This document shows, piece after piece, positions 3,024-28,389 of a stretch of DNA of 64,000 bases (position 1 is the first letter of the stretch; each line of letters opens with the position of its first letter). Location of the stretch: NCBI RefSeq assembly GCF_002157835.1, contig NZ_CP020810.1:62001-126000 (forward strand), read 5' to 3'. This DNA is from Mycobacterium dioxanotrophicus. Lineage in GTDB: Bacteria > Actinomycetota > Actinomycetes > Mycobacteriales > Mycobacteriaceae. A model generated the notes under the pieces. The model was given only the letters and a program-made list of their open reading frames with translations, had not been told where the DNA came from and did no database searches. The translations under genes and the position numbers were made by a program.

Positions 3024-3974
3024 TCAGTTCGGGGTCTCAGCGCTGCGCCAGTCGGTGTCCACCGTGGCCGGAACTAGCGCGTCATCGGTGGACACCGCCG
3101 GCGCGAAGTCGATCGCCGCCACCAGCCAGCGGCCACCCACCCCGGTCAGCGTCAGCGGATAGCTCAATTCCGTTGGGGCGTACTGAGAGTTAACGGCCGT
3201 GACGGCAGCCAGCACGCGCACGGTCTCTCCGTCGGCCGGTGTCGTCGGGGGCGGTGAGACGGCGGTGATTCCCGACACGGTGATGCTCTGATAGGCCCCG
3301 GCAACACCGATCAGCTTCGACTCGGCGGTCACGTACCGCTCCACCTGCCCGTCGCCGGTCAGGTAGGCGGTAAGGAATCCCGACGCCACCGAGTAGGCCG
3401 GGTCGGATTCACTCAATGTGGTCGGATAGCTCAGCGGCACGTCCGCCCCGGCCCCGGGCCCACTGATCCGGGCGGGCAGCGACGCTGCTCGTGGGCCGTA
3501 GCGGGACCACAGCACCGGCACCCGATACAGCGCCCGCTGCGGGCTGGCCGACTCGTAAGGCCGCTGCGTGACGCCGACGACCACGGAGAACACTTCGGCG
3601 TCAGCGTCTTTGCCCGCCATTCCCGCGTAGGTGACTGCCACCACCGTGGGGGTGTTGATCACCACCGCCGGGGTGGAGGGAAGCTGCAGGTTGGCATTGT
3701 CGACCGTGATGAACTGGTTCAGGCTCGCCACATCGGACTGGCTTGCCGTCAGCCATACCGACACGTAGTCCTGTGCGAAGGCGCTGACCACCGCCGACTT
3801 GTTCACTACTTCGCGTGACGGGGTGACGAGATCCGGTGGAGACCCGAACAGGAACTGCCACACCAGGTTCAGGCCGGCCAGGGCCGCCAACCCCAGCACC
3901 AGCGGCTTACCCGCCGCGGTCACCGCGCTCTTGCCGCGCTGCACTCGCCGCTGCCACGTCCTGCTCATCTGCAT
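3024..3974 (-). CDS. tcpC: TcpC-like conjugation channel protein (VirB8-like)
   Basis: The 316-residue protein has a short basic N-terminus, one transmembrane helix near residues 25-45, then two successive alpha/beta domains of about 110 residues, each of the NTF2/VirB8-like kind seen in TcpC of Gram-positive conjugative elements. Typical features are the aromatic-rich segment after the helix and the closing segment with WLVAAID. TcpC proteins anchor in the membrane and build the extracytoplasmic part of the channel. It lies between a discoidin-like membrane gene and the small two-helix gene, in one transcription unit with virB4. Family call from overall pattern and context. Confidence 0.8.
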   Translation of the reverse strand: MQMSRTWQRRVQRGKSAVTAAGKPLVLGLAALAGLNLVWQFLFGSPPDLVTPSREVVNKSAVVSAFAQDYVSVWLTASQSDVASLNQFITVDNANLQLPSTPAVVINTPTVVAVTYAGMAGKDADAEVFSVVVGVTQRPYESASPQRALYRVPVLWSRYGPRAASLPARISGPGAGADVPLSYPTTLSESDPAYSVASGFLTAYLTGDGQVERYVTAESKLIGVAGAYQSITVSGITAVSPPPTTPADGETVRVLAAVTAVNSQYAPTELSYPLTLTGVGGRWLVAAIDFAPAVSTDDALVPATVDTDWRSAETPN

Positions 3975-5479: not shown

Positions 5480-6397
5480 ATGTTGTTCAAGCCGAGTGTG
5501 GACAGATACGACGAGTTGCGCCGCGAGTGGATCGCCGAGCACTCCGCAATCTTCACGATGCAGATACGCCGCGCCGAGCTGCTGAACCGGCGCATCCGCC
5601 GCCGTCACCGCGAGACCGCCGGCGCCCGCCCCAACCCCTACGACGACCACGCTACCCATCCGTTGCTGAGCCGCGGCGCCAAGACCGTCGAGGCCAAACT
5701 TGAGCTCGCCATCGTCATCCTCGCCGCACTCGCGGCGCCACTGGGCTGGCCTGCGGGGCGGTTCATCTACCAGCGCATCGAGGCGTTGATCCCCGACCGG
5801 CTGCGTTCCTACCCCATTCCAGCGTTGCTGTTTGCTGCGGCCGTGCTCGGCGCGGTGACGACGCTGCTGTACGACCCCGGCCAAGGGTTCACAAGCGCGC
5901 TCCTGGCGCCCTGGCTGATGGCGCAGCTCCCAGCCGCAGCCCTGACCGCCGCTGTCTACGGCATCCTCAACGGCTGGCTGGCCATCGACGGCTCCACCGA
6001 GTGGTGGCCACTGACCCCACCAGCGCCGTCGGTGGAGCTGCCCGCCACACTGCTACCTGACGACCTGACCGCACCCTCACTGTTCGACACCGCGCCCGTG
6101 GCCGACCCCATCGACCGCACCCCACCAGGCGCCGGATCAGTCCGCTCGCTGCCACGATCCTCCCGGCTGCTCACCCTCGCGCTGGTGGTCAATGTCCTGG
6201 GCATCATCTGGACCCTGGCATCCGTCGGCGTCGGTGTGAAAACCGTTGTCGTGAAGTCGCTAACGCCATCGACCACCATCGGTGCCACCTACGCCGTTGC
6301 TGCGAGCAGTAGCGACGAGCACCTCGCCGAACACAGTGGATCACGCCGCGCCGACTGCCAGACTGACCGGTTCTTGGCCGCAAGCCTCGGACTTTAG
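5480..6397 (+). CDS. four-helix membrane protein, divergent inside T4SS block
   Basis: This 305-residue protein has a basic N-terminal 70 residues, then hydrophobic segments near residues 73-95, 110-128, 133-160 and 232-255, with a Pro-rich acidic loop between helices 3 and 4. It is the only plus-strand gene in the first 38 kb and points against the T4SS and ESX operons. The ATG at 5480 directly abuts regulatory element D, so the true start may be a later codon (Met near residue 27). No enzyme motif is visible. Given its place it is probably a membrane component or modulator of the conjugation machinery; function unknown. Confidence 0.65.
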   Translation: MLFKPSVDRYDELRREWIAEHSAIFTMQIRRAELLNRRIRRRHRETAGARPNPYDDHATHPLLSRGAKTVEAKLELAIVILAALAAPLGWPAGRFIYQRIEALIPDRLRSYPIPALLFAAAVLGAVTTLLYDPGQGFTSALLAPWLMAQLPAAALTAAVYGILNGWLAIDGSTEWWPLTPPAPSVELPATLLPDDLTAPSLFDTAPVADPIDRTPPGAGSVRSLPRSSRLLTLALVVNVLGIIWTLASVGVGVKTVVVKSLTPSTTIGATYAVAASSSDEHLAEHSGSRRADCQTDRFLAASLGL

Positions 6398-6516: not shown

Positions 6517-7974
6517 TCATAGATCGGCGTCTTTGCGGGTGTCCGACCATAGTCGGCGCACCAGTCCCGCGGCGCGTGAATACTGTTTGGTGTCAGTGTC
6601 TTCCTGGCCGCCGGTGCGTGACAGGATCGCCTTGATGGCCGTGTCGTACCGGTGCAGGAACTCTGACCAGTCCGGAATTTCCACGCAGGTTCCTACACCT
6701 CCGCGCACCAGCAGGCGTGCGTGCTCGCGGTCGGGGGGCAGCAGCTCCTGCCAGCGCAGTGTCGCCCCTAGGTCGCTGTTGAGGCTTTTGTGGGCGTCGG
6801 CCTGCCCGAACCCTTGACTGCGCCGGTTGGTCAGACCTGACCAGTTCTCGGCGGCCGTGAGCAGCTCTTCCTCGCGGGCGCCGAACATGATCACTGCGGC
6901 GCCGAAGATGTCGCGCAACTCGTTGGCATAGGTCTGCCCGTACACGGTGTCCAGCGACGAGGACGCCTGCACCGCGGCCATGAAGTTGATTCCCAAACCG
7001 CGGCCCTCTCCGACGATCCTGCGTAGCGAGGGAATCGGTGCGGTGTTGGGTAGTTCGTCGACGATCATCAACAATCGGTGCATCGGCTCGCGGGCCGAGG
7101 TCTTCTCGCGCCACCGCCGTACCAGCGAATCCAGCAACGTGACCGCCGAACCGGCCACCGTGCCGTCGGCCGGGGCCAACACGTACAGCGTTGCTTGCGG
7201 ATCATCGAGGAAATCTGCGGTGAACGGTTTCGCGCCCGGGCGCTGCACCAGCGAGGTTCGCAGCCACGGCGTGATCGCCTTGCGCATGGTGATGGCCACC
7301 GAATCACGTTGGCGGGGATCCATTTCCATGATCCGCATCATGCCCATCGACAGTGTGGGGTACTGATGGCAGATCGCGGCGGCCTGCGCCCAGCCCGGTT
7401 CACTGGTGTTCTTCGGGTCAATGTTGTCCACCCCGGTCAGCACCCAGTCCATGCCCTTGCCGTTGCCCTGCGGACTGGCCGCGAACAGAAACGCCGCCAG
7501 TGGACCGGCCGCCTGGGACTCCCACACCCCGCCGTCGGAGACCTGATCGGCTCCAGATCCCAGACCGACGGTGGCCATCTGCATGATCGTCTCGGCCACC
7601 GTCAACGCCTCGTATGGGCTGTCGATGGTCACCGTCGGGTCGTAGACGTTGGCGACGATGCCTTCGGGGTACACCGGGGAAGTCAAGGGGCGCAGATCAA
7701 GCAGCGCCCGCGGCCCCCACCGGCGCTGCATCACGTTCTGCATCAGATCGTCTTTGGATGACACCACCACGGCCGGGCCGCCCCACAGCACCGCCGCCGG
7801 CGCCAGGATGCGCCGCGACTTACCGGTGTCCGATGGTGCGGACACCAAAACCATTGGGGCACTGCGAGGCACGTACAACTGCTCACGCTTGCCGACGATC
7901 CGGCGGCCGAAGCCGCAGTAGGTGGTGGGGGTGGGGGTGAAGCTCGGAGCCTCACTCACCGCCGGACTAGCCAC
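6517..7974 (-). CDS. virD4: VirD4/TraG-type conjugal coupling protein
   Basis: About 485 residues from GTG 7974, which overlaps the upstream stop by 8 bases; an upstream start at 8043 is possible but would overlap the preceding gene by 77 bases. Walker A SAPSDTGKS lies near residue 45 and Walker B LLMIVDELPN near residue 308; an all-alpha domain lies between. There is no N-terminal membrane anchor, unlike classical VirD4. Coupling proteins are hexameric ATPases that bring the relaxase-DNA complex to the T4SS channel. It lies next to the ESX genes, fitting pRAW-type plasmids where T4SS and T7SS are jointly needed. Confident as a TraM-recognition/VirD4 family member. Confidence 0.85.
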   Translation of the reverse strand: MASPAVSEAPSFTPTPTTYCGFGRRIVGKREQLYVPRSAPMVLVSAPSDTGKSRRILAPAAVLWGGPAVVVSSKDDLMQNVMQRRWGPRALLDLRPLTSPVYPEGIVANVYDPTVTIDSPYEALTVAETIMQMATVGLGSGADQVSDGGVWESQAAGPLAAFLFAASPQGNGKGMDWVLTGVDNIDPKNTSEPGWAQAAAICHQYPTLSMGMMRIMEMDPRQRDSVAITMRKAITPWLRTSLVQRPGAKPFTADFLDDPQATLYVLAPADGTVAGSAVTLLDSLVRRWREKTSAREPMHRLLMIVDELPNTAPIPSLRRIVGEGRGLGINFMAAVQASSSLDTVYGQTYANELRDIFGAAVIMFGAREEELLTAAENWSGLTNRRSQGFGQADAHKSLNSDLGATLRWQELLPPDREHARLLVRGGVGTCVEIPDWSEFLHRYDTAIKAILSRTGGQEDTDTKQYSRAAGLVRRLWSDTRKDADL

Positions 7975-8380
7975 AGCGCCGCTGACGGTGCAGTCCGTCG
8001 GTGTCGACGATCGCCGCGCGAACCGCCGCCACGATCGAATCACGCTGGCGGGGGTCGCAGGTCAGCGTGCGCACGACCGACTGGCCCAGCATCGGTGCTG
8101 ACACCGAACACCGCATCGCCGCATGTGCCCAGCCCGGACTCTGCACGTCCTCGGGGTCGACGTTGGCCAGTGCTGCCCGCACCCAGTCCATGCCTTGCCC
8201 GTTGCCGAGTGGAGATGCCGCGAACAGTAGCGCGGCCAGCGGTTGGACCGCCTGCACATCCCAGAAGTCGGCGGGCCGACTGCGGCCCATGCCGGGTCGG
8301 CCCACCCTGAGCAGGGTTTCAGCTTGGACGATCGCCGTGTGTGCGCTCTCCACATCAACGGTCGGGTCATCTGAAGGCAT
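7967..8380 (-). CDS. stand-alone paralogue of the VirD4 all-alpha domain
   Basis: A 137-residue protein from ATG 8380 that closely matches the central all-alpha domain of the coupling protein encoded immediately downstream. It has LLFAASPLGNGQGMDWV where VirD4 has FLFAASPQGNGKGMDWV, PGWAHAAM against PGWAQAAA, and DPRQRDSI against DPRQRDSV. It lacks both Walker motifs, so it cannot be an ATPase. It is translationally coupled to virD4 (8-base overlap) and is the first gene after regulatory element C. In other systems this domain binds relaxase or cargo, so it may be a substrate adaptor or a modulator of the coupling hexamer; that is inference. Confidence 0.75.
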   Translation of the reverse strand: MPSDDPTVDVESAHTAIVQAETLLRVGRPGMGRSRPADFWDVQAVQPLAALLFAASPLGNGQGMDWVRAALANVDPEDVQSPGWAHAAMRCSVSAPMLGQSVVRTLTCDPRQRDSIVAAVRAAIVDTDGLHRQRRCG

Positions 8381-8398
8381 GTCCAAATCCTGGCAGAT

Positions 8399-8426
8399 AG
8401 ATACAGAGTCGGTCAATACGTGAACA
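8399..8426 (-). promoter_or_regulatory. recurrent plasmid promoter/operator element, site C
   Basis: Minus strand reads TGTTCACGTATTG then, after six bases, TCTGTATCT. It lies about 20 bp upstream of the all-alpha-domain paralogue/virD4 unit, in the gap after eccA. Confidence 0.55.
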
Positions 8427-8441
8427 ATGAACGAACAGCGG

Positions 8442-10328
8442 TTAGGTGGGTGGTTGAGCCTGCCGCCGGTCCTGGGACTCGCGCAGCCAGTCGGCCGCCC
8501 GCGCGCGGTTGGTCCGCATCTCTGGAGGTAGCGCCTGCTGATGCCCGTAGTGCACGTCCTCTGCTGTGAGCAGAGTCAGCGTGTCCTCGTCGAGGTCGGT
8601 GCCCAGATCGGGGTCGGACAGGTCGGCACCACTCAATCCCAGCGAGCTCACGATCCGGCTGTTGCGGTTCACCTGCGCCTTCTCCACCATGGTGCGCACG
8701 AAACGCCCGTTGCCTAGGCCGTCGATGACACGGATGACATCGCCTTCGCTGCTGGTGATGTGGGAGTTGTAATACTGCGCGAAACTCTCCCGCAGCGACA
8801 GCAGCGCGCCCGGTGCGAAGGTGTCACCGTCCTTGGCGGCCAGACCTTCCATGATCGCTATCAACTGATCCGGGTTGTATGAGGCGTATTCGATGAGGGT
8901 GGCGAAACGCGATCGCAGTCCGTCGTTGGCGGCCAACACGCGCTGACTGGCCATCGGATAACCGGCGGCGATGACGACCATCTCGTCTCGGTGGTTCTCC
9001 ATGAACGGGACCAGGGTGCTGATGATGGCCTGCCCGTAGGGGTCACCCGACCCGTACCCGGTGTGGATGAGGTCGCCGAACTCGTCGATGAACACCGTGG
9101 CGCCCAAACCTTCCTTGAGCTGATCGCGGGTGTTGTTCTCGGTGTCACCGACATGACGGCCGACCAGTTTGTCTCGGCGGGTTTCGTAGACGTCGGGCCG
9201 GCGCAGCAGCCCCAGACCGCAGAAGATACGGGCAACCGCCCGGGCTGAGGCCGTCTTGCCGACTCCAGGGGGACCCATCATCAGCAGATGCCGTGATACC
9301 GGCGACGTCGGCAACCCTTTGCGCTGCCGCAGGACTCGCGCGATCGAGTCGTTTCGCAGTTCGGTGATCCGCGCTTTGACCTCATCGAGGCCGACCATCG
9401 CCGCCAACTCCGCTTCGGCCTCAGCCAGCAGCGTCTGCGCTGAGCGGGCCGACTCCGCAGCGGCCCGCTGCTCGGCGCTGGTCTCGGTGGAAGGGTCCCA
9501 GCGATCCGTGCGCGTCTCGATCGTTTGTGGATCCGTGATCTGCAGTCCGAAGGTCGGATCCGACAGCGCGGTCTGGGCACGCTCGAAACCGGGCCACTGC
9601 ACGCGGATGTTGGTGAGGACCGTCCGGGCCTCCTCAGGCTCGCCCTGGTGGCGCAGCACCAGCGCCCGACAAAACAGCGCGTCGCGGGTCAGCTCGTCGC
9701 TGGCCTGCTGGGCGCTGGGCTTCCACCCTGACGTGGTGTCGTCGGCGGGAGGGTTGATCACCAGTTCGACGGCTGCCAACGCTCGATCGCTGAGCCCCAA
9801 AGACGCTGCCGCCCAAGCCTCCTGCAGGCTCGCGGCCCTGCGCAGATGCGGTTCGCCATGCCACTGGCGGCAGTTGCTCACCGCGACCAGCACATCAGGC
9901 CAGCGTTTGGTGGCCGTGGCCAGAACCGACCGCACATAGCCCACCGAAGGAGTCGCCGGCAGCTCGGCCATGGCGTCGTCGGCGCCCTGCCAGTTCTGCT
10001 CGCGAATCAAGGCCGCAGCGTAGGCCAGCCGTGCAGTGGTGGTGTCGACAATCGGCATGCGCACATAATCGATGTCGAAGTGGGCTCCCAGATCGGCGGG
10101 CCGGTGCTGAATCCGCAGCAGACCCTCGCCGAGCCGGTCAGCGTGGCTGGCCAGCCGCTCTAGCACCTGCATGGAGCGCTCCCCTGTCGCATACCGGCCC
10201 AACCAGGCGTCGGCCAGTTCCGGGTTGTCCCCGGTGGCCAGGACGAACACCTGCGCCGCTTTATCCGGAGAACTGTGCAGCACCTTCATCGCGGCACGAA
10301 GCGCCTGCAGTGAACGGTCATCGATCAC
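8442..10328 (-). CDS. eccA: ESX type VII secretion AAA+ ATPase EccA
   Basis: This 628-residue protein has an N-terminal alpha-helical TPR-like half and a C-terminal CbxX/CfqX-type AAA+ domain with Walker A MGPPGVGKTASA near residue 350 and Walker B TVFIDEFGDLI. EccA is the cytosolic chaperone-like ATPase that works with EspG on PE/PPE and Esp substrates. The ATG overlaps the eccE stop by 4 bases (ATGA). It is the last gene of the ESX run; about 40 bp later comes a new promoter-like element for the VirD4 unit. Length matches chromosomal EccA proteins. Confidence 0.92.
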   Translation of the reverse strand: MIDDRSLQALRAAMKVLHSSPDKAAQVFVLATGDNPELADAWLGRYATGERSMQVLERLASHADRLGEGLLRIQHRPADLGAHFDIDYVRMPIVDTTTARLAYAAALIREQNWQGADDAMAELPATPSVGYVRSVLATATKRWPDVLVAVSNCRQWHGEPHLRRAASLQEAWAAASLGLSDRALAAVELVINPPADDTTSGWKPSAQQASDELTRDALFCRALVLRHQGEPEEARTVLTNIRVQWPGFERAQTALSDPTFGLQITDPQTIETRTDRWDPSTETSAEQRAAAESARSAQTLLAEAEAELAAMVGLDEVKARITELRNDSIARVLRQRKGLPTSPVSRHLLMMGPPGVGKTASARAVARIFCGLGLLRRPDVYETRRDKLVGRHVGDTENNTRDQLKEGLGATVFIDEFGDLIHTGYGSGDPYGQAIISTLVPFMENHRDEMVVIAAGYPMASQRVLAANDGLRSRFATLIEYASYNPDQLIAIMEGLAAKDGDTFAPGALLSLRESFAQYYNSHITSSEGDVIRVIDGLGNGRFVRTMVEKAQVNRNSRIVSSLGLSGADLSDPDLGTDLDEDTLTLLTAEDVHYGHQQALPPEMRTNRARAADWLRESQDRRQAQPPT

Positions 10329-11971
10329 GGTTGCAGCGCTCCCGTCCGCAGATGGGTCAGGAACTGCGCTTCATTGCGGGGCCGCATCACCGACAACCGC
10401 ACCCCACGCACCGCCGGGGTGCCGATCACCAGTTCATCCGGGGATTCCTGCACGATCGTCACATCGGCGTCGGAGTCCACCGATCCCACGGTCACTAGAC
10501 TGCGCCCCCGCTCACCGACACCACCGGCTAGCCCCTCGCCGTCGGCCACGATGACCGTCGGTTGCCGCACCGGGTCACGATCACCGGCCAGGCTGATCCG
10601 ATAATCGCTGTCGCACAACGGTCGCCACACATCGGGACGATCACTGTGAATCAGGATCACCGCCCCGGCGGCACTGGTCCGCAGCAGCAGCGGGATCACG
10701 ACCGGCAGGTCAGCGCTGATTGAAACCCGTGTGGCCCGAAGCGGATCGGTCAGCGGCATCAGGAACGGGACCCCGGTGACGGTCATGCCGAACATCGGCC
10801 CCGACGGACCTACCGGAATCTTCAGGTCGGAGCCGTCGCCCAGCAGACGTGGCGACATCTCCAGGTGCAAAGCCCTGTCCCCCAACGGTAACGATGCCAG
10901 CAGGGAGTCGAAGGCCTGACCGGAGACCGGCTGCAGCGCCAGCAGTGGAGGGTGGGTCAACGGGGCGTCGGTGTGGAACCGCACCAGGCCGGCGACGCGG
11001 GAGCCGCCCGCGCAATCACCGAACAGCCTCACTGTGGTGACGGTGCGGTGTGCCCGCACCGTCCACAGGTCGTTGAGCATCTTGGTGCTCAGGTCGCGAC
11101 CGGCGATGCGGTAGGTGGTCACGTAGTCGGCGTCGGCGTCCAGGTTCGACCAATTCTCCTGCACCCGATCCAGATCGGTGTCGTTGAGCAGAGCGGCGAT
11201 GGCTGCGCCCATCTGGGGCGCGGTGCAGGTCACTGCCCGGCAGCCCGCCCGCAGCACCGCTTGGCGCACCCGTTCGGTGGCCGCCGCGGCGGCCGCGGCG
11301 GCATCACCGCGATACAGCATCGCCGCCAGACATGCCTGCGGACACAGCCGCAACACCAGCCAGGAGCGGCGGTCGCCGACAGCGGCGCGGTCGCCGACGA
11401 TCTCGGCGTACTTCGGGGTGTAGCTGCCGTCGGCGGCCACCCGGCTGCCCACCTGCACCACGTCCACCGAGTGCAGCTCCAGACCAGCGAACTGGCTCAG
11501 CCGCGACTCAATCGCCTCCAACGGGATCGTGTTGATGGTCTCTGCTCCCGTCGGCACCAGCACCGTGGGCGAGAACGCGCGACCGTGCAGCGCGATCATC
11601 GTGACTGCGTACTGGCCGTCCCAGATCATCCCCACCGGCCCCGCACCGGGCATGTCCACGGTGAACGGTTCGGGGATACGGGTGCGGGCCCGGCGGGCAC
11701 TTCCGCGGTGCCGGAAGTACACAAACCGCGCCCACCGCGCCAGCCAGCCGGCCGCCGTCGCACCGTTGTAGCTGACGGTCACCACCATCAGCACCACACC
11801 CAGGACCAGCGGAATGAGCCACCACGGCACCGGTGAGGCCGCCACCAGAATCGCCGCGGCGATCAGTTCGGCGATCACCACCAGCTTCAACCGCAAATCC
11901 AGCCGCCAGCGTCGAATCTGCTCACCGAATCCTGCGTGTGGGCCAGGGATTTGCTCATCGAGCACGGTCAC
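10325..11971 (-). CDS. eccE: ESX membrane complex component EccE
   Basis: A 548-residue protein with two adjacent N-terminal transmembrane helices (roughly residues 33-70) followed by a large soluble region. This is the layout of EccE, which sits at the periphery of the ESX inner-membrane complex with EccB, EccC and EccD. It lies between mycP (10 bp gap) and eccA (4-bp overlap), the conserved eccD-mycP-eccE-eccA order. Motif content in EccE is weak, so the call depends on topology, size and position. Confidence 0.88.
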   Translation of the reverse strand: MTVLDEQIPGPHAGFGEQIRRWRLDLRLKLVVIAELIAAAILVAASPVPWWLIPLVLGVVLMVVTVSYNGATAAGWLARWARFVYFRHRGSARRARTRIPEPFTVDMPGAGPVGMIWDGQYAVTMIALHGRAFSPTVLVPTGAETINTIPLEAIESRLSQFAGLELHSVDVVQVGSRVAADGSYTPKYAEIVGDRAAVGDRRSWLVLRLCPQACLAAMLYRGDAAAAAAAATERVRQAVLRAGCRAVTCTAPQMGAAIAALLNDTDLDRVQENWSNLDADADYVTTYRIAGRDLSTKMLNDLWTVRAHRTVTTVRLFGDCAGGSRVAGLVRFHTDAPLTHPPLLALQPVSGQAFDSLLASLPLGDRALHLEMSPRLLGDGSDLKIPVGPSGPMFGMTVTGVPFLMPLTDPLRATRVSISADLPVVIPLLLRTSAAGAVILIHSDRPDVWRPLCDSDYRISLAGDRDPVRQPTVIVADGEGLAGGVGERGRSLVTVGSVDSDADVTIVQESPDELVIGTPAVRGVRLSVMRPRNEAQFLTHLRTGALQP

Positions 11972-11981
11972 GGTCGCCCCC

Positions 11982-13404
11982 CTACTGTCCTCGTCGCGAT
12001 TTCGACATCGACGTCACCAGCAGCACCACGCCAAGCACCAGCAGCAGCGTGGTGCTTCCCGCCACCGCGAGGATCATCGGCCGATGATCCGCCGGTGGGG
12101 GTGGCGCCGGAGGCCCCAGCGGTCGTGTCAGGTTCTCCCGAGGTGCCGGGATTTCGGGTACATCGAAGTTCAGCGCAGCCAGCGGGTCGATCACCCCGTA
12201 GCCGACTCTGTTGTCCACCACCGCGGCCGGGGAGTGTGCGGTCTGCTTGATCCGGTTGATCACCTGTGCGGCAGGCAGATCGGGATACTTGGCGCGGATC
12301 AGCGCCGCCAGTCCCGACACATACGCGGTAGCGAAGCTTGTGCCGCTCATCGGCTTCAGCTCCGAGGTCTGCGGATCGACGGTGGCGTTGATGATGCCCC
12401 CGGCGGGGTTGACCCCCTCCACGAACAGACCCGGAGCACCCACCCCGACCCACGGCCCAGCCAAGCTGATGTCGGCTCCCTCGCTGGTCTGCGCGGGCTG
12501 ACCCCGGTCATCGGTCGCACTCACCGACAGCACATAATTGGAGAACCACGACGGCGTGCTGATCGTCACGACCCCACCCCAGTTGCGGGGATCATCCACA
12601 TTGGTGGCGTCGATGTTCGGGTTCTGGGAACACCCTGTGCCCATGGGCATTCCGGCGCTGGCGGCATTGGCGTTTCCGGCCGCGGCCACCAGCACGACAT
12701 CCTTTTCCATCGCCGCATACCGCACCGCGGCCCCCAGCGTGGTCTGGTCGACCGGCTTGGTCACCGGCACACACGACACGATGGACATGTTGATCACCCG
12801 GGCACCGAGGTTGGCGAGGTGCACGATCGCGCGTGCCAGCGTGCTCACCGTGCCCGCTCGTGCGTCATCGTCGTTGCCGCCGCGTTCGCGCACGAACATG
12901 CCCGAGGACTGGCGGACCGAGATGATCTCGGCATCCGGCGCGACCCCGACTAGGCCGTCGCCCTCGGCCGGGCTGGCGCCGATGATGCTGGCGACCACGC
13001 TGCCGTGGGTGTCGCAGTCCGACAGCCCGTCACCGCCCATCACGTAGTCGCCGCCGCCGCGCAGGTGGGGTAGACGCGGAGAGGGCCACACGCCTGTGTC
13101 GATCACCCCGACCGTCACGCCGGCCCCACGCCCGGCCGACTTCCACAGCTCCGGCAGATTCATGAACGTCTGCGCTGCCGGCGGCACGGCCACATCGGTG
13201 CCCGGCATCAGCGCGTTGGCGGGGCATTCGTAGCGTTGCTTCATCGGCTCGTCCGGGCCGGGTTCGCCATCGGCAGGAACAGCGGTCGGATCGATCGCCG
13301 GAGGTGTGATCGCCGTGGCGGTGGCCGACGGCCACATCAGCGCAAGCATCGCGGCCGTTCCCGCGACCGCCAGACGACGCCCGATCCCCACGAAGCTAGC
13401 CATC
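11982..13404 (-). CDS. mycP: mycosin subtilisin-like serine protease MycP
   Basis: The chosen ATG 13404 overlaps the eccD stop (TGATG) and gives 474 residues beginning with a signal peptide (MASFVGIGRRLAVAG). The catalytic triad is visible: Asp in VIDTGVWPS, His in CDTHGSVVAS and Ser in MSGTSFATAY, with the oxyanion Asn in VAAAGNANA. A Pro-rich linker and a C-terminal transmembrane helix followed by a basic tail complete the mycosin layout. Mycosins are anchored outside the inner membrane, cap the ESX complex and are required for secretion. The ORF is open upstream to 13442 but those residues lie inside eccD. Confidence 0.93.
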
Positions 13405-14938
13405 ACATGTTCCTTGCCAGGGCCAGCAGGTTCAGCAGCCATACCGCGACCGGGGGGACCGCCACGATCAGCAGGTATTCACACCATTCCACGATTTTGC
13501 GGAACACCGGGGAGAACACCTTCGCCGGCACAACCGCAGCGGCCCCCATTCCGGCGATGCCCAGCGCAATGATCACCGCTGCCGCCGCGTAGGCCGCCAC
13601 CGGGCTGGGCCAGGTCAGCGCGTACTTCACGGTCGTGACCATGACCATCAGCACCGAAGCCGCCACCACGGTGATCGCCTGACCCCGGGCGGCGAACGCC
13701 CTGCCGCGCAACAGCAGCACTGCTGCCAGCAGCCCGATGAACACCGTCGCCAGCCACCAGCGGCCCTGCCCCGGTTCCACGACGAACACCGAGGCGCCCA
13801 CGAAGAAGATCGCCACCGCGATCAGCAACGCACTCAAGTAGACGTTGGCCGCCTCGGCTCCCCGGCGCAGGTCCTCCACACTGGGTGTGCCCTGGTGCTC
13901 GGCGGCCACCAGCGCCTCTTTGGCGATGGCGTCGGCGTTATCAAAAGTGTCCTTGCCAGTGACTGTGGGAAACGGCGGCACCGGGATACCGGCCATGCGG
14001 GCAGCGATCTTCGGCGCACCGGTCAGCACGAACAAGGCCAGCACCATCACCACTACCGACAGGTTCTGCAACGTCGCCCCGGTCAGCGCATGGACGACGG
14101 CCAGCGCCGCCAGGCCGATGCCGACGATGACGATGGTTGCCATCAGAGCGCGCGGGGCTGGACTGAGCCTCCACAACAGCGCAGCCAAGACCACCGCCAC
14201 CATCACCGCGAAGGTGAGGTGCCAGGGTCCGACGCTTCCCGGAGCAGCCATGAACGCCGCCGCCGGGCAGGCGATCAACGCCCCCGGAAGCCATAACGCG
14301 TTGGCGGTCACCGAGTCTCGCTGCTGCCTCCACACCAGTGCCCCACCGATGATCAGCAGCAGTCCCAGTCCCGCAGCGCCGGCGGTCGGGATCAGGTTCC
14401 ACTCCTGGCCTGCGCCACGGTTACGCGACCACGCCAGCATCAGCAGCCCCGTGGTCACCGCCACTGCAACAGCCACGATGATCCCGGCCACCAGCCGGGC
14501 CGTGGCAGCAGTCACCACAGGGGTGCGGGCCTTGTTCAGCACCGCCACCGCCGACGACGGGGACTCGATCACCGGTGTGAATTCGACGTCGGCGTCGATC
14601 ACCTCCAGCACCAGCAGGTCGCCGTCGACCACCCCCTGCTGACCCAGTGTCTGTGTCCGGTCCAGCGGCCTTCCGTCGATGTGGGTCAGGTTGACCAGGC
14701 CCGGGCTGACCATGCCGTTCTCGTCGGGGCTGCGTAGCCCCTCTTCACCGCTGTCATCGGTCTGCAGTCGGCGCACCAGGGAGTCGACCACCGCCGCCAC
14801 CGGGGAGCTGGCCGGAAGCGTCACGTCGTGTTGGCGGCCTTCGAACAGCACCGCCACATTGACCTGCTCGGCCAGACGGACCTGACGCGCCGGGACCGCC
14901 CCCTGCGTGCTTCGCTCCGTCGCTGCCGTCATCGCCAC
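13403..14938 (-). CDS. eccD: ESX membrane channel protein EccD
   Basis: This 511-residue protein has an N-terminal ubiquitin-like domain (about residues 20-110) and then about eleven hydrophobic segments to the C-terminus, the defining EccD architecture. EccD forms the dimeric membrane vestibule of the ESX complex. Start could be GTG 14938 or ATG 14932; the latter gives an ATGA overlap with the end of espI. The downstream mycP start overlaps its stop, so eccD, mycP, eccE and eccA are one tightly coupled transcription unit. Confidence 0.92.
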   Translation of the reverse strand: MAMTAATERSTQGAVPARQVRLAEQVNVAVLFEGRQHDVTLPASSPVAAVVDSLVRRLQTDDSGEEGLRSPDENGMVSPGLVNLTHIDGRPLDRTQTLGQQGVVDGDLLVLEVIDADVEFTPVIESPSSAVAVLNKARTPVVTAATARLVAGIIVAVAVAVTTGLLMLAWSRNRGAGQEWNLIPTAGAAGLGLLLIIGGALVWRQQRDSVTANALWLPGALIACPAAAFMAAPGSVGPWHLTFAVMVAVVLAALLWRLSPAPRALMATIVIVGIGLAALAVVHALTGATLQNLSVVVMVLALFVLTGAPKIAARMAGIPVPPFPTVTGKDTFDNADAIAKEALVAAEHQGTPSVEDLRRGAEAANVYLSALLIAVAIFFVGASVFVVEPGQGRWWLATVFIGLLAAVLLLRGRAFAARGQAITVVAASVLMVMVTTVKYALTWPSPVAAYAAAAVIIALGIAGMGAAAVVPAKVFSPVFRKIVEWCEYLLIVAVPPVAVWLLNLLALARNM

Positions 14939-22694: not shown

Positions 22695-25694
22695 TCACCA
22701 CGAATCAGCGGACTGCTCATGCAGAGATTTCCCGGGCGGCGGTAGCGCCACCTGCATGAGCTGGCGGCCCAGCTTTCGATACACCAGTTCACCCCGCCCA
22801 GGTGCCCGTGGAGCAGGACGCACCCCGTCGACAATGACGCCGTCGGCGCGGGTGCCGTCAAGGATGAGCACCCCCGCCCCGGCGCGATCCATCGCGGTCA
22901 CCACCTTGTTGTGGGCGCTCGTTGCCGCCCATCCCGTGCCGTTGAGGCTCGCCAACACATGCACCCCCATTTGCCGTCCACGTTCGATCACCGGCTCCAA
23001 CGCCGGCATCAGCCGCGACGTCATCGAGGACCCCGGTGCGTTGAACAGGTGCAGATCATCGATCACGATGAAGTACCGAGGACCGCTGAACCGCCACTGC
23101 GCCCGCTCATGAGGCGTGGCGTTCTCCGGCGGCCGACGTTCGCTGGTGAACCTCTTGGCAAGATGAGCCGCGATCGCACCGACATCCACCGCCGGGTTGT
23201 CGACGTGTAGGGCCAGATACTCCGGTTCGATGTAGGCCGCCAGCTTCAGATCCGGGTCCAACGCCACGATCTGTGCTTCTGCGGGCGAGAACGTGTCCTG
23301 GATTGCGCTGACCAGCGTGCGCATCACCGTCGTGCGGCCCGACCCGCTGCTGCCCACCACGTAGAAGTTCGTTGCCGCGGTCAGATCCACACCGACGGTC
23401 TCGAGGGCGACCTCGCCCACACCCAGCTTGAGGGTGCCCGCAGGAACCGGCCCCAGCTCGTGCCAGTGCAGCTCGGTGGGCAGTTCAGGCAGCGGGGGCG
23501 CCACGTCAACTCCCCGCCGCTGCCAGGACTGCGCGATCAGCTGACACGTCGCCTCCACCGAGGACTGGTCATACGTCACCGCGCCGTGGGCGTCGGCCGT
23601 CACCGCCGCCGTCGCCACCGGAGCGCTCATCAGGAAGTGCAGCCCGCCGCGCTTGAGTCCGCGGCCCGGCTGGTCTGGCACGGTCTTGGCGCGTTCCCGA
23701 TCCCCCATCTCCGATTCGCGGTAATCGGCCATCCGCAGTTCGATGCGGGTGCCGAACTTACTGTTGAGGTTGTAGGGCAGGGTGACCCACTGGTCGTTGG
23801 TGACCATCAGGTGGATGCCGTAGTTCAGCGCCGACGCCGACCCCAGTTCGGTGATCCGAGTGAACAGCTCCTGATCCTTGATCTTCAACGCCGCCAAGTT
23901 GTCGACGAACAAGAACACATCACCGTATCCGTCCTCGGGCACCTCACCGGGCTTGCCGGCGAACTTACGGGCCCGAAACTCCGTGAGGTCGATTCCGGCC
24001 AACTCCCAGTTGCGCACCCGGCCGGCCAGCAGACGCTCGACCTCGCTGAGGATTCGGGTGATCCGCTCCTCATTGCCCTGCCCGGCGACACCGCTCATAT
24101 GCGGCAGACCCGACATGTTCTGCAGCTTGCCGCCGCCGAGGTCGATGCAATAGAACTGTACTCGCTGCGGGCTGTGCGACACCGCGAGGTTCGCCATAAT
24201 CGACTGCAGCGCAGTGGATTTCCCGCTCTGCGCCGCGCCGATGATGGCCGCGTTGCCCTTGCTTCCCGACAGATCCACGCTCAGCAGCTTCTGGCTGTGG
24301 TCGAACGGATCATCTTCGCGGGCATAGGGAATCGTCAGACCCGCGTCGGCGCTCACATCGAGCCAGTCGCGTCCCCAGAACTCCTGTGCCACCTCATCGA
24401 CGGCCACCACCGGGGTCTCGTCCAGCGGAGGCAGGTACAGCTTGTGCATCGCACGGCGGGTGCGACCCGCCTCGACCAGACGCTGCACCAACACCGACAC
24501 CACGGTGTCGGCGTCCACACTCATCTGCTCGATCGAAATCTCGTCGGCGAGGTCGTCGTCCTGTTCTTCGTCGCCGACCTCGATGTCCAGCGGCAGCGGC
24601 GCCACGGCGGCGCCGAAACGGAGCGGATCGATGTACTGGCCTTCCCGGCGGCGCCGCTGCTGGCGACCCACCACAGGAGGGGTAAACGGTGCCGAGACGT
24701 AATACGACCGAAACAAGGTGTGTTCGTCCTCGTAGACCAGGAACCCTGTGCCCTCCGGAGCGCCCTTGAGGTCTTCGTATGCACGTGTCGAGCCAATCGC
24801 CTGCCGCGATTGGCCGGCGTCCTTGACCTTCAACCCGATCGAATACGTCTGCTGCGCGATCATTCCGGCCATCCGCCCCTGCTCCACGCGCTGTGAGGCA
24901 TTGAGGATGTGCATCCACAGACCGCGTCCCTTTCGGGCCACCACGTCAAAGGTCTCAGCCAGCCGAGGCCGAATCCGCAACAGCTCACTGAACTCGTCCA
25001 GCACGATGAACAACGTCCCCAACGGTTCCAGATCGGGGCGCGTCGTGGCCCGCGCCCGTTCATAGTCGCGGACGTCCTTGTACCCCGCGGCTTTCAGGAT
25101 CGCCTCGCGCCGGCCGGTCTCACCGTTGATCATGTCCTCGAAGCGATCCAGCCGTGCCGCAGCCTCGGCCAGGTTCGACACCACACCCTGGCAGTGCGGA
25201 ATATCGGCCAGCTTCATCATCGCCGTCTCGCCCTTGAAATCGCCCAGGATCATCTGCAGCACTTCCGGCGGGTGCAGCATCGCCATCGCCAGACAGAACG
25301 ACACCAGGGTTTCGGACTTACCCGAACCGATCTGACCGGTCAGCATGCCGTGCGGCCCCATCCCGCCCTCGGCGCCTTCCTTGAGGTCCAGCCACACCGT
25401 CTTACCGGTGTTCGGATTCTTGCCCAGCGGGGCACGCAGACGCGTGGTCGTGGTCAGTTGCGACCACAACGTGGTCGGATCCCACACGCGGGCATCCTCG
25501 ATCTGGAACAGGTCGAGGAAATCCTGTCCCGCTCGCGCGGAGGCGGCCCGCTCGGCCACATACCGGGTGGCCGCGTCCTGCGGCTCCCAGGCGGCCACCG
25601 CGCGCGCCAACACCTCGGCCTCCACCAGCGGCATCACGTCCGGTGTGGCCGCGAAGGCAAGTCCCTCCTCAGCCAAAGGCGAAACCCGAACCAT
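22695..25694 (-). CDS. eccC: ESX ATPase EccC, three-ATPase-domain subunit
   Basis: This 999-residue protein contains three FtsK/SpoIIIE-type domains: Walker A TGQIGSGKSE near residues 119-128, AAQSGKSTAL near 485 and GSSGSGRTTV near 785 (Lys replaced by Arg in the third). Walker B of domain 1 is LFIVLDEFSE. It lacks the N-terminal membrane helices and DUF domain of EccC, which are encoded by the separate gene just upstream, starting 2 bases after that gene's stop and in another frame. EccC drives substrate recognition and secretion. The split position differs from EccCa/EccCb of ESX-1. Confidence 0.9.
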   Translation of the reverse strand: MVRVSPLAEEGLAFAATPDVMPLVEAEVLARAVAAWEPQDAATRYVAERAASARAGQDFLDLFQIEDARVWDPTTLWSQLTTTTRLRAPLGKNPNTGKTVWLDLKEGAEGGMGPHGMLTGQIGSGKSETLVSFCLAMAMLHPPEVLQMILGDFKGETAMMKLADIPHCQGVVSNLAEAAARLDRFEDMINGETGRREAILKAAGYKDVRDYERARATTRPDLEPLGTLFIVLDEFSELLRIRPRLAETFDVVARKGRGLWMHILNASQRVEQGRMAGMIAQQTYSIGLKVKDAGQSRQAIGSTRAYEDLKGAPEGTGFLVYEDEHTLFRSYYVSAPFTPPVVGRQQRRRREGQYIDPLRFGAAVAPLPLDIEVGDEEQDDDLADEISIEQMSVDADTVVSVLVQRLVEAGRTRRAMHKLYLPPLDETPVVAVDEVAQEFWGRDWLDVSADAGLTIPYAREDDPFDHSQKLLSVDLSGSKGNAAIIGAAQSGKSTALQSIMANLAVSHSPQRVQFYCIDLGGGKLQNMSGLPHMSGVAGQGNEERITRILSEVERLLAGRVRNWELAGIDLTEFRARKFAGKPGEVPEDGYGDVFLFVDNLAALKIKDQELFTRITELGSASALNYGIHLMVTNDQWVTLPYNLNSKFGTRIELRMADYRESEMGDRERAKTVPDQPGRGLKRGGLHFLMSAPVATAAVTADAHGAVTYDQSSVEATCQLIAQSWQRRGVDVAPPLPELPTELHWHELGPVPAGTLKLGVGEVALETVGVDLTAATNFYVVGSSGSGRTTVMRTLVSAIQDTFSPAEAQIVALDPDLKLAAYIEPEYLALHVDNPAVDVGAIAAHLAKRFTSERRPPENATPHERAQWRFSGPRYFIVIDDLHLFNAPGSSMTSRLMPALEPVIERGRQMGVHVLASLNGTGWAATSAHNKVVTAMDRAGAGVLILDGTRADGVIVDGVRPAPRAPGRGELVYRKLGRQLMQVALPPPGKSLHEQSADSW

Positions 25695-25696
25695 CT

Positions 25697-26848
25697 TTAG
25701 ACAACCTCCCTGGCCCGCAACAGATTTCCCACCGCATCGAACTTCATCGCCGTCGCCGACGTCGCCAGCGGCGAGGAGTAGTCGTTGGTGGCCTCAACCA
25801 CCGCCACCCCGGCGTAGCCGGAATCGCGCAGCAACGGGGCACAGTTCGCGCCCGGCATATCCACCACGATCACCCAATGGTCCTCAGCGCGGGGCTGTCC
25901 CTCCATCGGTGGCGACCACGCTGGCCGGCTCGCCCACTGCTCACCGAAGCGCTCCATGAACTCCCCCACATCGCTGTAGATCATCCGCACCGGCCCACAC
26001 GCGTCGACCAGCTCAGGGTCAGCGACATGGGGCCACCACTTAGCCCACTCCCACGACTGCAGGTCGTCGCTGATGATCGCCAGCCGCACCACGTCAGGAC
26101 CGTGAAACACACACAACTGGCACACCAGCGCCCGCAATGTCCCCTGCAGCAGCGGGCGCTGGGTCTCCTCGGCGAAGAACGCCCAGCCCATCTGGTCGAA
26201 CAGATGCAGCGGTCGTGCCACGTCGTGAACCACATTCTGCGCCAACAGGAAATCGCGCGCCGCGATAGCTGTCGAAGTCTCCCGGTACTCCGGGGGCGGC
26301 ACCTTCTGCGGCGGGTTGATGATCGTGCGCAATCGGGTCACCCCCAGCCCCAGCCGCACATGCCCGAAATTGCGGTCAGTGGGTCGACGCTCCCACATTC
26401 GGCCAGTGCCGACGATGGTCAGCAGCGAACCGTTGCAAGGATTGGGATGGTGATAGGCGATCTCAGCCGCCTGCTCCTGAGCGCCGACGGTCACATCATC
26501 GCGCAGTTCATCCAGACTGCGCATATAGTCAACCCTGGTCTGGTTGAGCGCCGCAGGCTTGGTCTTCTCGTTGCCGCCCCCACCACGGTTGCGCAGCATC
26601 ATCAACATCGACACCAACATGATCGGCATGATGAACATGCCACCCAGGCCGATCGAGCGAGCGCCGGTTCGGATCATGATCACCAGCAACACGATCACCG
26701 CGACCACGAAGATCAACACCCACACCCACACCGGGGGCCGCTGCTGCGGCGGCCGCGTGATCTCGCCGATCTCGGGCATCGTGGCAGTGCGCTCCGGAAG
26801 GATCGGCGCCGCCGGCTTCTCCTTGTCGAAACCCTTCTTCGTCGTCAT
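25697..26848 (-). CDS. eccCa: EccC N-terminal membrane subunit (TM + DUF domain)
   Basis: A 383-residue protein from ATG 26848 with two transmembrane helices (about residues 39-58 and 65-84) and the following degenerate ATPase-like DUF domain of EccC, ending AMKFDAVGNLLRAREVV. It contains no Walker A. The start overlaps the eccB stop by 4 bases and its stop is 2 bases from the start of the three-domain EccC subunit. Together the two match a full-length EccC, so either this ESX-P type works with a membrane adaptor plus a soluble ATPase, or one frameshift split the gene. Confidence 0.85.
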   Translation of the reverse strand: MTTKKGFDKEKPAAPILPERTATMPEIGEITRPPQQRPPVWVWVLIFVVAVIVLLVIMIRTGARSIGLGGMFIMPIMLVSMLMMLRNRGGGGNEKTKPAALNQTRVDYMRSLDELRDDVTVGAQEQAAEIAYHHPNPCNGSLLTIVGTGRMWERRPTDRNFGHVRLGLGVTRLRTIINPPQKVPPPEYRETSTAIAARDFLLAQNVVHDVARPLHLFDQMGWAFFAEETQRPLLQGTLRALVCQLCVFHGPDVVRLAIISDDLQSWEWAKWWPHVADPELVDACGPVRMIYSDVGEFMERFGEQWASRPAWSPPMEGQPRAEDHWVIVVDMPGANCAPLLRDSGYAGVAVVEATNDYSSPLATSATAMKFDAVGNLLRAREVV

Positions 26849-28389
26849 CGCGTGCCCTTCTCGCTCATCGGCGCGGCGGCCGGGTTGGCGCCCAAGGTGT
26901 CGTGCTCGACCATCGCGGACTGCCGCGACAACGCCGGGCCGGCCGGAAGCCAACGCACCACCGCCCACGGCGCCGGAGTCGGTGCCACACCCGACAACCC
27001 CAGCGCCCGCAGCGGATCATGTTGTCTATCAGAGGTTTCGATGCCGAAGCGCACACCGCTGTGGCCGATCCACCACACCGACTCGCTGCGCCCGGAATCA
27101 GGTTCCACGCCGGTCACCTGGACAAAGTTCGCGCTGCCCGGCCCCAGATACACCTCATCGGCTGACTGCTGGCCCGACTGCGCCGACACCATCCTGATCA
27201 CCCTCGACTCCTCACCCTGCGCGATCGGCAGACGCCGACCCGACACCGTGGTCACCGTGGCCTGCGGTGAACCAGAATCCTTGCGCCACATCACGCACGT
27301 GACCGGTTCTGCGGCCTTGTCCAGCAGCTTCACCGGCCCGTTGGGATACATCGACACATCGAAGCCCACGGCCTGCGGAGCCGCCGCAACCACCGGAGCC
27401 TCCACGTCGAGCACCCGCCCCTGCCCAGACACATTGGCGTTGTGCAGCATCAGCGCCACCGTCTCCGGAATCATCTGCAGCCCTGCCGGCAGCGCCACAA
27501 AGAACTGGTCGTCGCCAGTAGCACTGCGCGACTTGACCACCGACCCCGACACCACCGCCAGCCCCGGCCCGGCATACCCGACCGGGCCGCCCGGGGAGGG
27601 CACGTCGGGAACCCGCAACGGCGCTGTCGGAATCAACGCCTCATACAGTGCCCGCGACATCGGAGTGGGCCGAAGATTGCCCGCCTGCAGCCCCAGCGCC
27701 AACATCACCGGCTTGTCGGCCAGATCGAGCTGCGACCGGTGCCCATCAGTGACCAAAAAGACGCTGCCGCCATAGGTCATCAGCACCGCCTCCGGAGAGG
27801 CCATCTCGTGGGCCCAATCCCCCAACTCGGCCTGTCCGGTTAGTGCGGTCACCTGAGGACTCGCCAAAGTGCCCGCGGTACCGGCCTTGTCACACAACCC
27901 CCACCCGGTGTTGGTGGGAGTACGCGGCGTCAGATCATTTGGGGCCCCGACGATGCCGACCGTCGGCCCGATCGGCCGCTCCTCGATCTGAGCCATCGGC
28001 ACCAGCGTCGGGGAAGCGTCCTGGCCGAGAATCAGCCGCGCCGACGCCAGATTCAACACCGGGTGCATCGTGCTGTTGACATCAACGAACAATGCTCCAC
28101 TGCCCCGGTCAGCCACCAGCTTGGAATTGCCGATCTGCCCCACCGGCCGCAGCCAAGACAACACGAAGCACACCCCAAGTGCCAGTGCGGCGATCACCAC
28201 CCCGACGGTGGCCGCCGCCCCGTAGTTCTTCGACGGGTCATGCACCAGACGCACCGAATGGCGAGCGACCGCCACCGCCATCCGGTGCCACAGAAACCGC
28301 CACGCCGCAACCTGTTCCAAAGAGGCGTACGTCAATCCGGTCCCGCCGCGGCGCCGCTCGGCCCGATGGGTGCGCCTCGGTTCGGTCAC
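26845..28389 (-). CDS. eccB: ESX core component EccB
   Basis: This 514-residue protein has a cytosolic N-terminal segment (YASLEQVAAWRFLWHRM), one transmembrane helix near residues 60-82 and a large periplasmic domain with repeats, the EccB layout. EccB is a core membrane component with periplasmic ATPase-like activity reported for some systems. It is preceded by the cell-wall hydrolase genes (3-bp gap) and overlaps the split eccC by 4 bases. Confidence 0.92.
   Translation of the reverse strand: MTEPRRTHRAERRRGGTGLTYASLEQVAAWRFLWHRMAVAVARHSVRLVHDPSKNYGAAATVGVVIAALALGVCFVLSWLRPVGQIGNSKLVADRGSGALFVDVNSTMHPVLNLASARLILGQDASPTLVPMAQIEERPIGPTVGIVGAPNDLTPRTPTNTGWGLCDKAGTAGTLASPQVTALTGQAELGDWAHEMASPEAVLMTYGGSVFLVTDGHRSQLDLADKPVMLALGLQAGNLRPTPMSRALYEALIPTAPLRVPDVPSPGGPVGYAGPGLAVVSGSVVKSRSATGDDQFFVALPAGLQMIPETVALMLHNANVSGQGRVLDVEAPVVAAAPQAVGFDVSMYPNGPVKLLDKAAEPVTCVMWRKDSGSPQATVTTVSGRRLPIAQGEESRVIRMVSAQSGQQSADEVYLGPGSANFVQVTGVEPDSGRSESVWWIGHSGVRFGIETSDRQHDPLRALGLSGVAPTPAPWAVVRWLPAGPALSRQSAMVEHDTLGANPAAAPMSEKGTR

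Follow-up and report, generated by a model that had tools for sequence, protein, structure and literature searches.

We identified a small gene directly before virD4 in a 64,000-nucleotide stretch of DNA from Mycobacterium dioxanotrophicus (the window; positions 62001-126000 of a 155,598-base contig, in an assembly of 8.08 Mb) whose product is a free-standing homolog of the all-alpha domain (AAD) of VirD4, the type IV coupling protein (T4CP) of ESX-P conjugative plasmids. We propose that it would be a dedicated stand-alone paralog of this domain that serves the plasmid's type IV coupling complex as an accessory subunit, binding cargo or the relaxosome, a reading to which we give a probability of about 0.45. 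The proposal builds on homology, predicted fold, conservation, genomic coupling and co-diversification. The central features are as follows; window-type loci are those whose VirD4 is at least 60% identical to that of the window.

7967..8380, minus strand: gene of the stand-alone AAD protein, 137 aa, with ATG at 8380 and stop TAG at 7967-7969
6517..7974, minus strand: virD4, coupling ATPase (T4CP), 485 aa, Walker A and Walker B present
7252..7644, minus strand: homologous AAD region within VirD4, about residues 111-241
7967..7974, minus strand: 8-nt overlap GTGGCTAG of the virD4 GTG start and the small gene's TAG stop, found in 9/9 window-type loci
8387..8392, minus strand: -10-like box CAGGAT, 6 nt ahead of the ATG, conserved in relatives
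8411..8416, minus strand: -35-like box TTGACC, conserved in relatives, negative in a consensus scan

The open reading frame that a first-pass annotation of this DNA had placed at 7967..8380 is present there, on the minus strand, and its product is 47% identical to the AAD of the adjacent VirD4. In a profile-profile alignment 127 columns matched VirD4 residues 108-241 (probability 99.9%, E 1.6e-33), a region that falls between the GK of Walker A (residues 51-52) and the DE of Walker B (residues 306-307), and by this placement the small protein is, on sequence criteria, a homolog of the T4CP all-alpha domain. The annotation had also described a protein that keeps the cargo-contact domain and lacks both Walker motifs. 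Both descriptions hold: besides the homology, LLFAASPLGNGQGMDWV and DPRQRDSI are present, and no GK or DE pair occurs in the 137 residues, which therefore lack the motifs expected of a T4CP ATPase.

The predicted model of the small protein is all-alpha (pLDDT 86.8). Its best matches among solved structures were the AADs of Cagbeta, although these were weak: Foldseek alone gave a best E of 1.2 with a Cagbeta AAD at rank 47, and re-ranking moved the Cagbeta AAD up. TrwB was not among the best 50 matches in either structure list. A sequence search of the PDB returned no T4CP and a single chance-level match (E 0.054), and no family in Pfam, NCBIfam, PHROGs or PADLOC scored above its curated cut-off, the window protein having one Pfam match at E 0.084 and none in the other three collections. 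The likeness to the AADs of TrwB, Cagbeta and VirD4 lies in homology to the adjacent VirD4 AAD and in the predicted all-helical model; the small protein differs from them in being separate, 137 aa long and no ATPase, and in being without residues that are near-invariant in the VirD4 AADs compared. Most stand-alone and VirD4 rows of the alignment have in common A, L, W, PLA, L(F/Y)AAS, G..W, W, A, RQRDS and A. Two features are variable or missing in the stand-alone copies: a VGxG..V.D.G loop, conserved at 70-95% in VirD4, and four residues of the last helix, T, K, W and R, conserved there at 91-100%. The pattern suggests that the core of the domain was retained while the contacts needed inside the ATPase were released.

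The first-pass annotation had taken absence from all other ESX-P plasmids as an outcome that would count against its reading, and this outcome did not arise. A protein search found 14 relatives, 12 near full length (136-168 aa, 62-96% identity) and two fragments. Some relatives are entered in databases as "type IV secretion system protein VirD4", a misleading guide to domain content since the Walker motifs are absent. By tblastn the plasmid collection yielded 44 records, a mixture of VirD4 and stand-alone copies, of which 43 were mycobacterial and the one from E. coli had an E of 7. Inspection of six records placed stand-alone copies on pRAW, pMK12478, pMyong1, pMAH135, pMchErm55 and a M. riyadhense plasmid, and their occurrence on other ESX-P plasmids shows that the window gene is not a stray duplication. 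The pRAW copy (NZ_HG917973.1, about 98010-98456; L006:5977-6423) is absent from the gene table of PLSDB, a table that by design is not complete; the copy is preceded by a strong ribosome-binding site, AAGGAGG, and another M. marinum record, AP018497.1, has an entry for a hypothetical protein at the corresponding place.

Within the genus, 98/396 genomes had a match. Our distribution set consisted of the window and 97 loci among the matches listed; 95 of these 98 loci hold VirD4 and three have stand-alone copies only. A locus was termed pRAW-type when its VirD4 shared at least 60% identity with that of pRAW, and distant-type when its VirD4 fell into neither this nor the window type. As in the window, a copy lies near VirD4 in 23/28 window-type loci, and the same is true of 15/30 pRAW-type and 2/37 distant-type loci (15/19, 11/23 and 2/32 after 95% clustering), the first two rates being inflated because the window and 17 loci were chosen via the small gene and one region was shifted to include the copy. 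Working in the opposite direction, 26/80 regions were below full length, mostly at contig ends, including all five window-type loci without a copy. One of the two distant-type copies (L110) proved to be a virD4 broken by a stop, not a stand-alone gene. A sensitive rescan of the 73 loci without a copy gave a best E of 0.37. When 23 VirD4-bearing genomes, mostly selected for a VirD4 locus without a nearby copy, were searched whole, 13 had stand-alone matches (two with an in-frame stop, one as fragments) and 10 had none. The gene is common on such plasmids, but neither universal nor essential. Transposon data for pMK12478, in the available text of their source, address growth and not transfer (PMC10470612).

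Two stand-alone copies are present in 6/30 pRAW-type loci. Two different, diverged copies stand in tandem downstream of virD4 in L058, L111, L112, L126, L127, L141 and L143, and one subfamily no longer has the DPT start and is missing much of its AASPxGN motif. One contig with a distant-type VirD4 (G123:C3; L129, L130) also carries a pair of stand-alone AAD genes, at distances of about 48 kb and more from it, with no other VirD4 among the matches listed for that contig. On pRAW (L006:5710-5928) and pMAH135 (L009:5717-6001) a small protein directly after virD4 is, by eye, perhaps a helix-turn-helix DNA-binding protein.

Outside the genus, two contigs of actinobacterial metagenome-assembled genomes (L071, L073) carry copies. 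Matches in three other genera among 301 family genomes were VirD4-length frames, except L191 and L195, which are broken virD4s; among 396 phylum genomes three had a match, two of them in the genus and the third a VirD4-length frame. These family and phylum searches scored 10-13 first-look candidates per genome, a depth at which distant copies could be missed.

Across nine related loci the median dN/dS was 0.44 for the small gene (29 pairs) versus 0.12 for VirD4 (30 pairs), values that place the small gene under purifying selection and evolving faster than virD4. Distances among stand-alone proteins correlate with those among VirD4s (Mantel r 0.70, 38 loci), and by this measure the two genes co-diversify. 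A tree built from a short alignment of AADs, 39 of them stand-alone and 44 from VirD4, has one branch (96/94) that divides the two kinds, a topology pointing to one old split and later diversification. Repeated local duplication of the AAD, instead of a single origin, is also compatible with these data: approximately unbiased (AU) tests did not reject joining the copies to VirD4s of their own type, with p 0.317 for the window type and 0.056 for the pRAW type.

The start of the small gene is marked by a conserved arrangement, TTGAYY-N18-CANNNT-N6-ATG, which is retained in 9/10 distinct upstream regions (the tenth has N17), among them that of the M. chelonae type, whose flanking bases differ. 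The same pattern occurred in 25/200,000 shuffled sequences, a figure that is a guide only, as the pattern was defined post hoc and the sequences are related. A scan for the sigma-70 consensus upstream of the small gene gave no sites. The promoter-like element claimed in the first-pass annotation survives as conserved boxes but not as a consensus site, and we regard it as an after-the-fact footprint, promoter-like rather than a mapped promoter. With the -10-like box 6 nt ahead of the ATG, the mRNA would be leaderless or near-leaderless; leaderless transcription is frequent in mycobacteria. The longest open reading frame would begin at TTG 8416 (149 aa). This start was rejected because L020/L022, L023 and L024 have an in-frame stop before the ATG; they retain the TTGACT box despite that stop, and we read the TTG at 8416 as part of the -35-like box. 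A chance open reading frame or fragment was likewise rejected on account of the relatives, the selection and the start signals.

At its other end the small gene overlaps virD4, as had been annotated, by 8 nt at GTG 7974. Among possible virD4 start codons, this GTG is the only one that every window-type locus retains (nine loci, 8 distinct sequences); in each of them the small gene ends in TGTGGCTAG with the possible virD4 GTG start inside; in L015 the overlapping GTG is the only in-frame start ahead of the conserved YCGF. No clear Shine-Dalgarno sequence was seen ahead of the overlapping GTG. Translation of virD4 is probably coupled to that of the small gene.

The small gene, read from the minus strand, has eccA on one side and virD4 on the other, in an ESX-P locus that comprises eccB, eccC, eccD, mycP, eccE and eccA together with virD4 and tcpC. 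Its neighbors (named by Pfam unless stated) are:

3024..3974, minus strand: tcpC
5480..6397, plus strand: separate hydrophobic protein adjoining virD4, 45% identical over 213 residues to the virD4-adjacent pMyong1 protein
8442..10328, minus strand: eccA, upstream neighbor of the small gene
10325..11971, minus strand: eccE
11982..13442, minus strand: mycP, subtilase family, named from its position in the ESX locus
13403..14938, minus strand: eccD
22695..25694, minus strand: eccC, FtsK/SpoIIIE domains
26845..28389, minus strand: eccB

A MobF-type relaxase is encoded elsewhere on the same contig (TrwC domain, E 1e-74), and the confirmed linkage to type IV secretion, ESX and relaxase genes marks the small gene as one of an ESX-P conjugative plasmid. 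By hydropathy the VirD4s of the window and pRAW are without an N-terminal membrane segment. The separate hydrophobic protein beside virD4 is conserved, and pRAW has a similar-looking gene ahead of its virD4; the membrane-bound and soluble portions of the coupling protein may be separate polypeptides. Another contig of this assembly has a further VirD4-like match (G000:C3:92268-92498, in a 634-codon frame) and a second TrwC-type relaxase.

What might a free AAD do beside a coupling ATPase? Known AADs recognize cognate relaxosomes or effectors and help channel activation, and coupling ATPases have been proposed to act with auxiliary proteins as coupling complexes, according to the available text of the sources (PMC7434980, PMC12624023; PMC12857230). 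As VirD4 retains its own AAD, the small protein would add to VirD4 and not replace it. Its most likely site would be on the relaxosome or against the VirD4 ring, on the cytoplasmic side. Contact with either could offer a second surface, one that evolves faster, for recognizing the MobF relaxase-DNA complex or else an accessory factor, and so a part in cargo choice. A possible accessory role around a VirD4-type ATPase recalls Legionella DotM, DotN, DotY and DotZ with DotL, although these belong to a different machine and are not described, in the source text available, as paralogs of the T4CP's own AAD. The available text of PMC7434980 also likens the TrwB AAD to the domain with which TraM binds DNA; TraM belongs to the relaxosome and interacts with T4CPs. 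By analogy a free AAD could act like TraM of the F plasmid, a likeness drawn via the TrwB AAD rather than from sequence.

A regulatory role fits almost as well. We consider it a possible, if doubtful, alternative that the small protein is a regulator or decoy that binds VirD4 or cargo and keeps the ATPase unassembled or the cargo occupied until mating. The precedent is CagZ of Helicobacter, also a small protein acting on a VirD4-type ATPase, which binds the AAD of Cagbeta and holds this ATPase in monomeric form (PMC9886983, available text). The comparison is one of role, with no homology claimed; CagZ binds an AAD, whereas the small protein is itself one. The virD4 overlap and the conserved promoter-like element could set stoichiometry, and the loss of VirD4-specific conserved residues suits a dominant-negative domain; however, AAD-AAD contacts are minimal in the Cagbeta hexamer as described in the same text, so that a lone AAD may be unable to poison the ring. 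It is less probable again that the protein acts on other ESX-P plasmids, co-resident or incoming, by disturbing their coupling complex (fertility inhibition), or that it shields its own. Its evolution faster than VirD4, the strongly diversified subfamilies, some in tandem pairs, and the several genomes with more than one such VirD4 would suit this role, but co-diversification and overlap with its own virD4 favor a partner in cis. A functionless remnant of a virD4 duplication is very improbable, for although broken copies exist (one in-frame stop each in G245, G202 and G004; fragments only in G221) and many plasmids are without the gene, the exact domain boundaries, dN/dS below 1, conserved start signals and many divergent intact copies argue otherwise.

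We retain the accessory subunit as our preferred reading. The first-pass interpretation stands in part, as regards a stand-alone AAD beside virD4 and a conserved promoter-like element, and the gene is widespread on ESX-P plasmids; an adaptor that would help choose relaxase or ESX-linked cargo, and that transfer may need, is kept here as a conditional proposal. A more ambitious and rather unlikely extension is a modular ESX-P coupling system, made up of VirD4 as a soluble ATPase, a membrane partner encoded separately, and a stand-alone AAD that can be exchanged and so swap or modulate cargo specificity. Among coupling systems it would be the first whose recognition domain had been copied out to diversify as a gene family in its own right. 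The open-access literature searched (including PMC11877719), as far as its text was available, contained no description of such a protein, and a mention in the original pRAW paper is possible.

A conserved, nameless partner of VirD4, present also on the prototype plasmid pRAW, would be a concrete handle on cargo recognition, and a natural experiment in which a recognition domain evolves free of its motor. The gene bears on the way in which components of the ESX (type VII) and VirD4 kinds work together to move mycobacterial plasmids: it is often present on plasmids with ESX-linked conjugation and may help choose or control what transfers.
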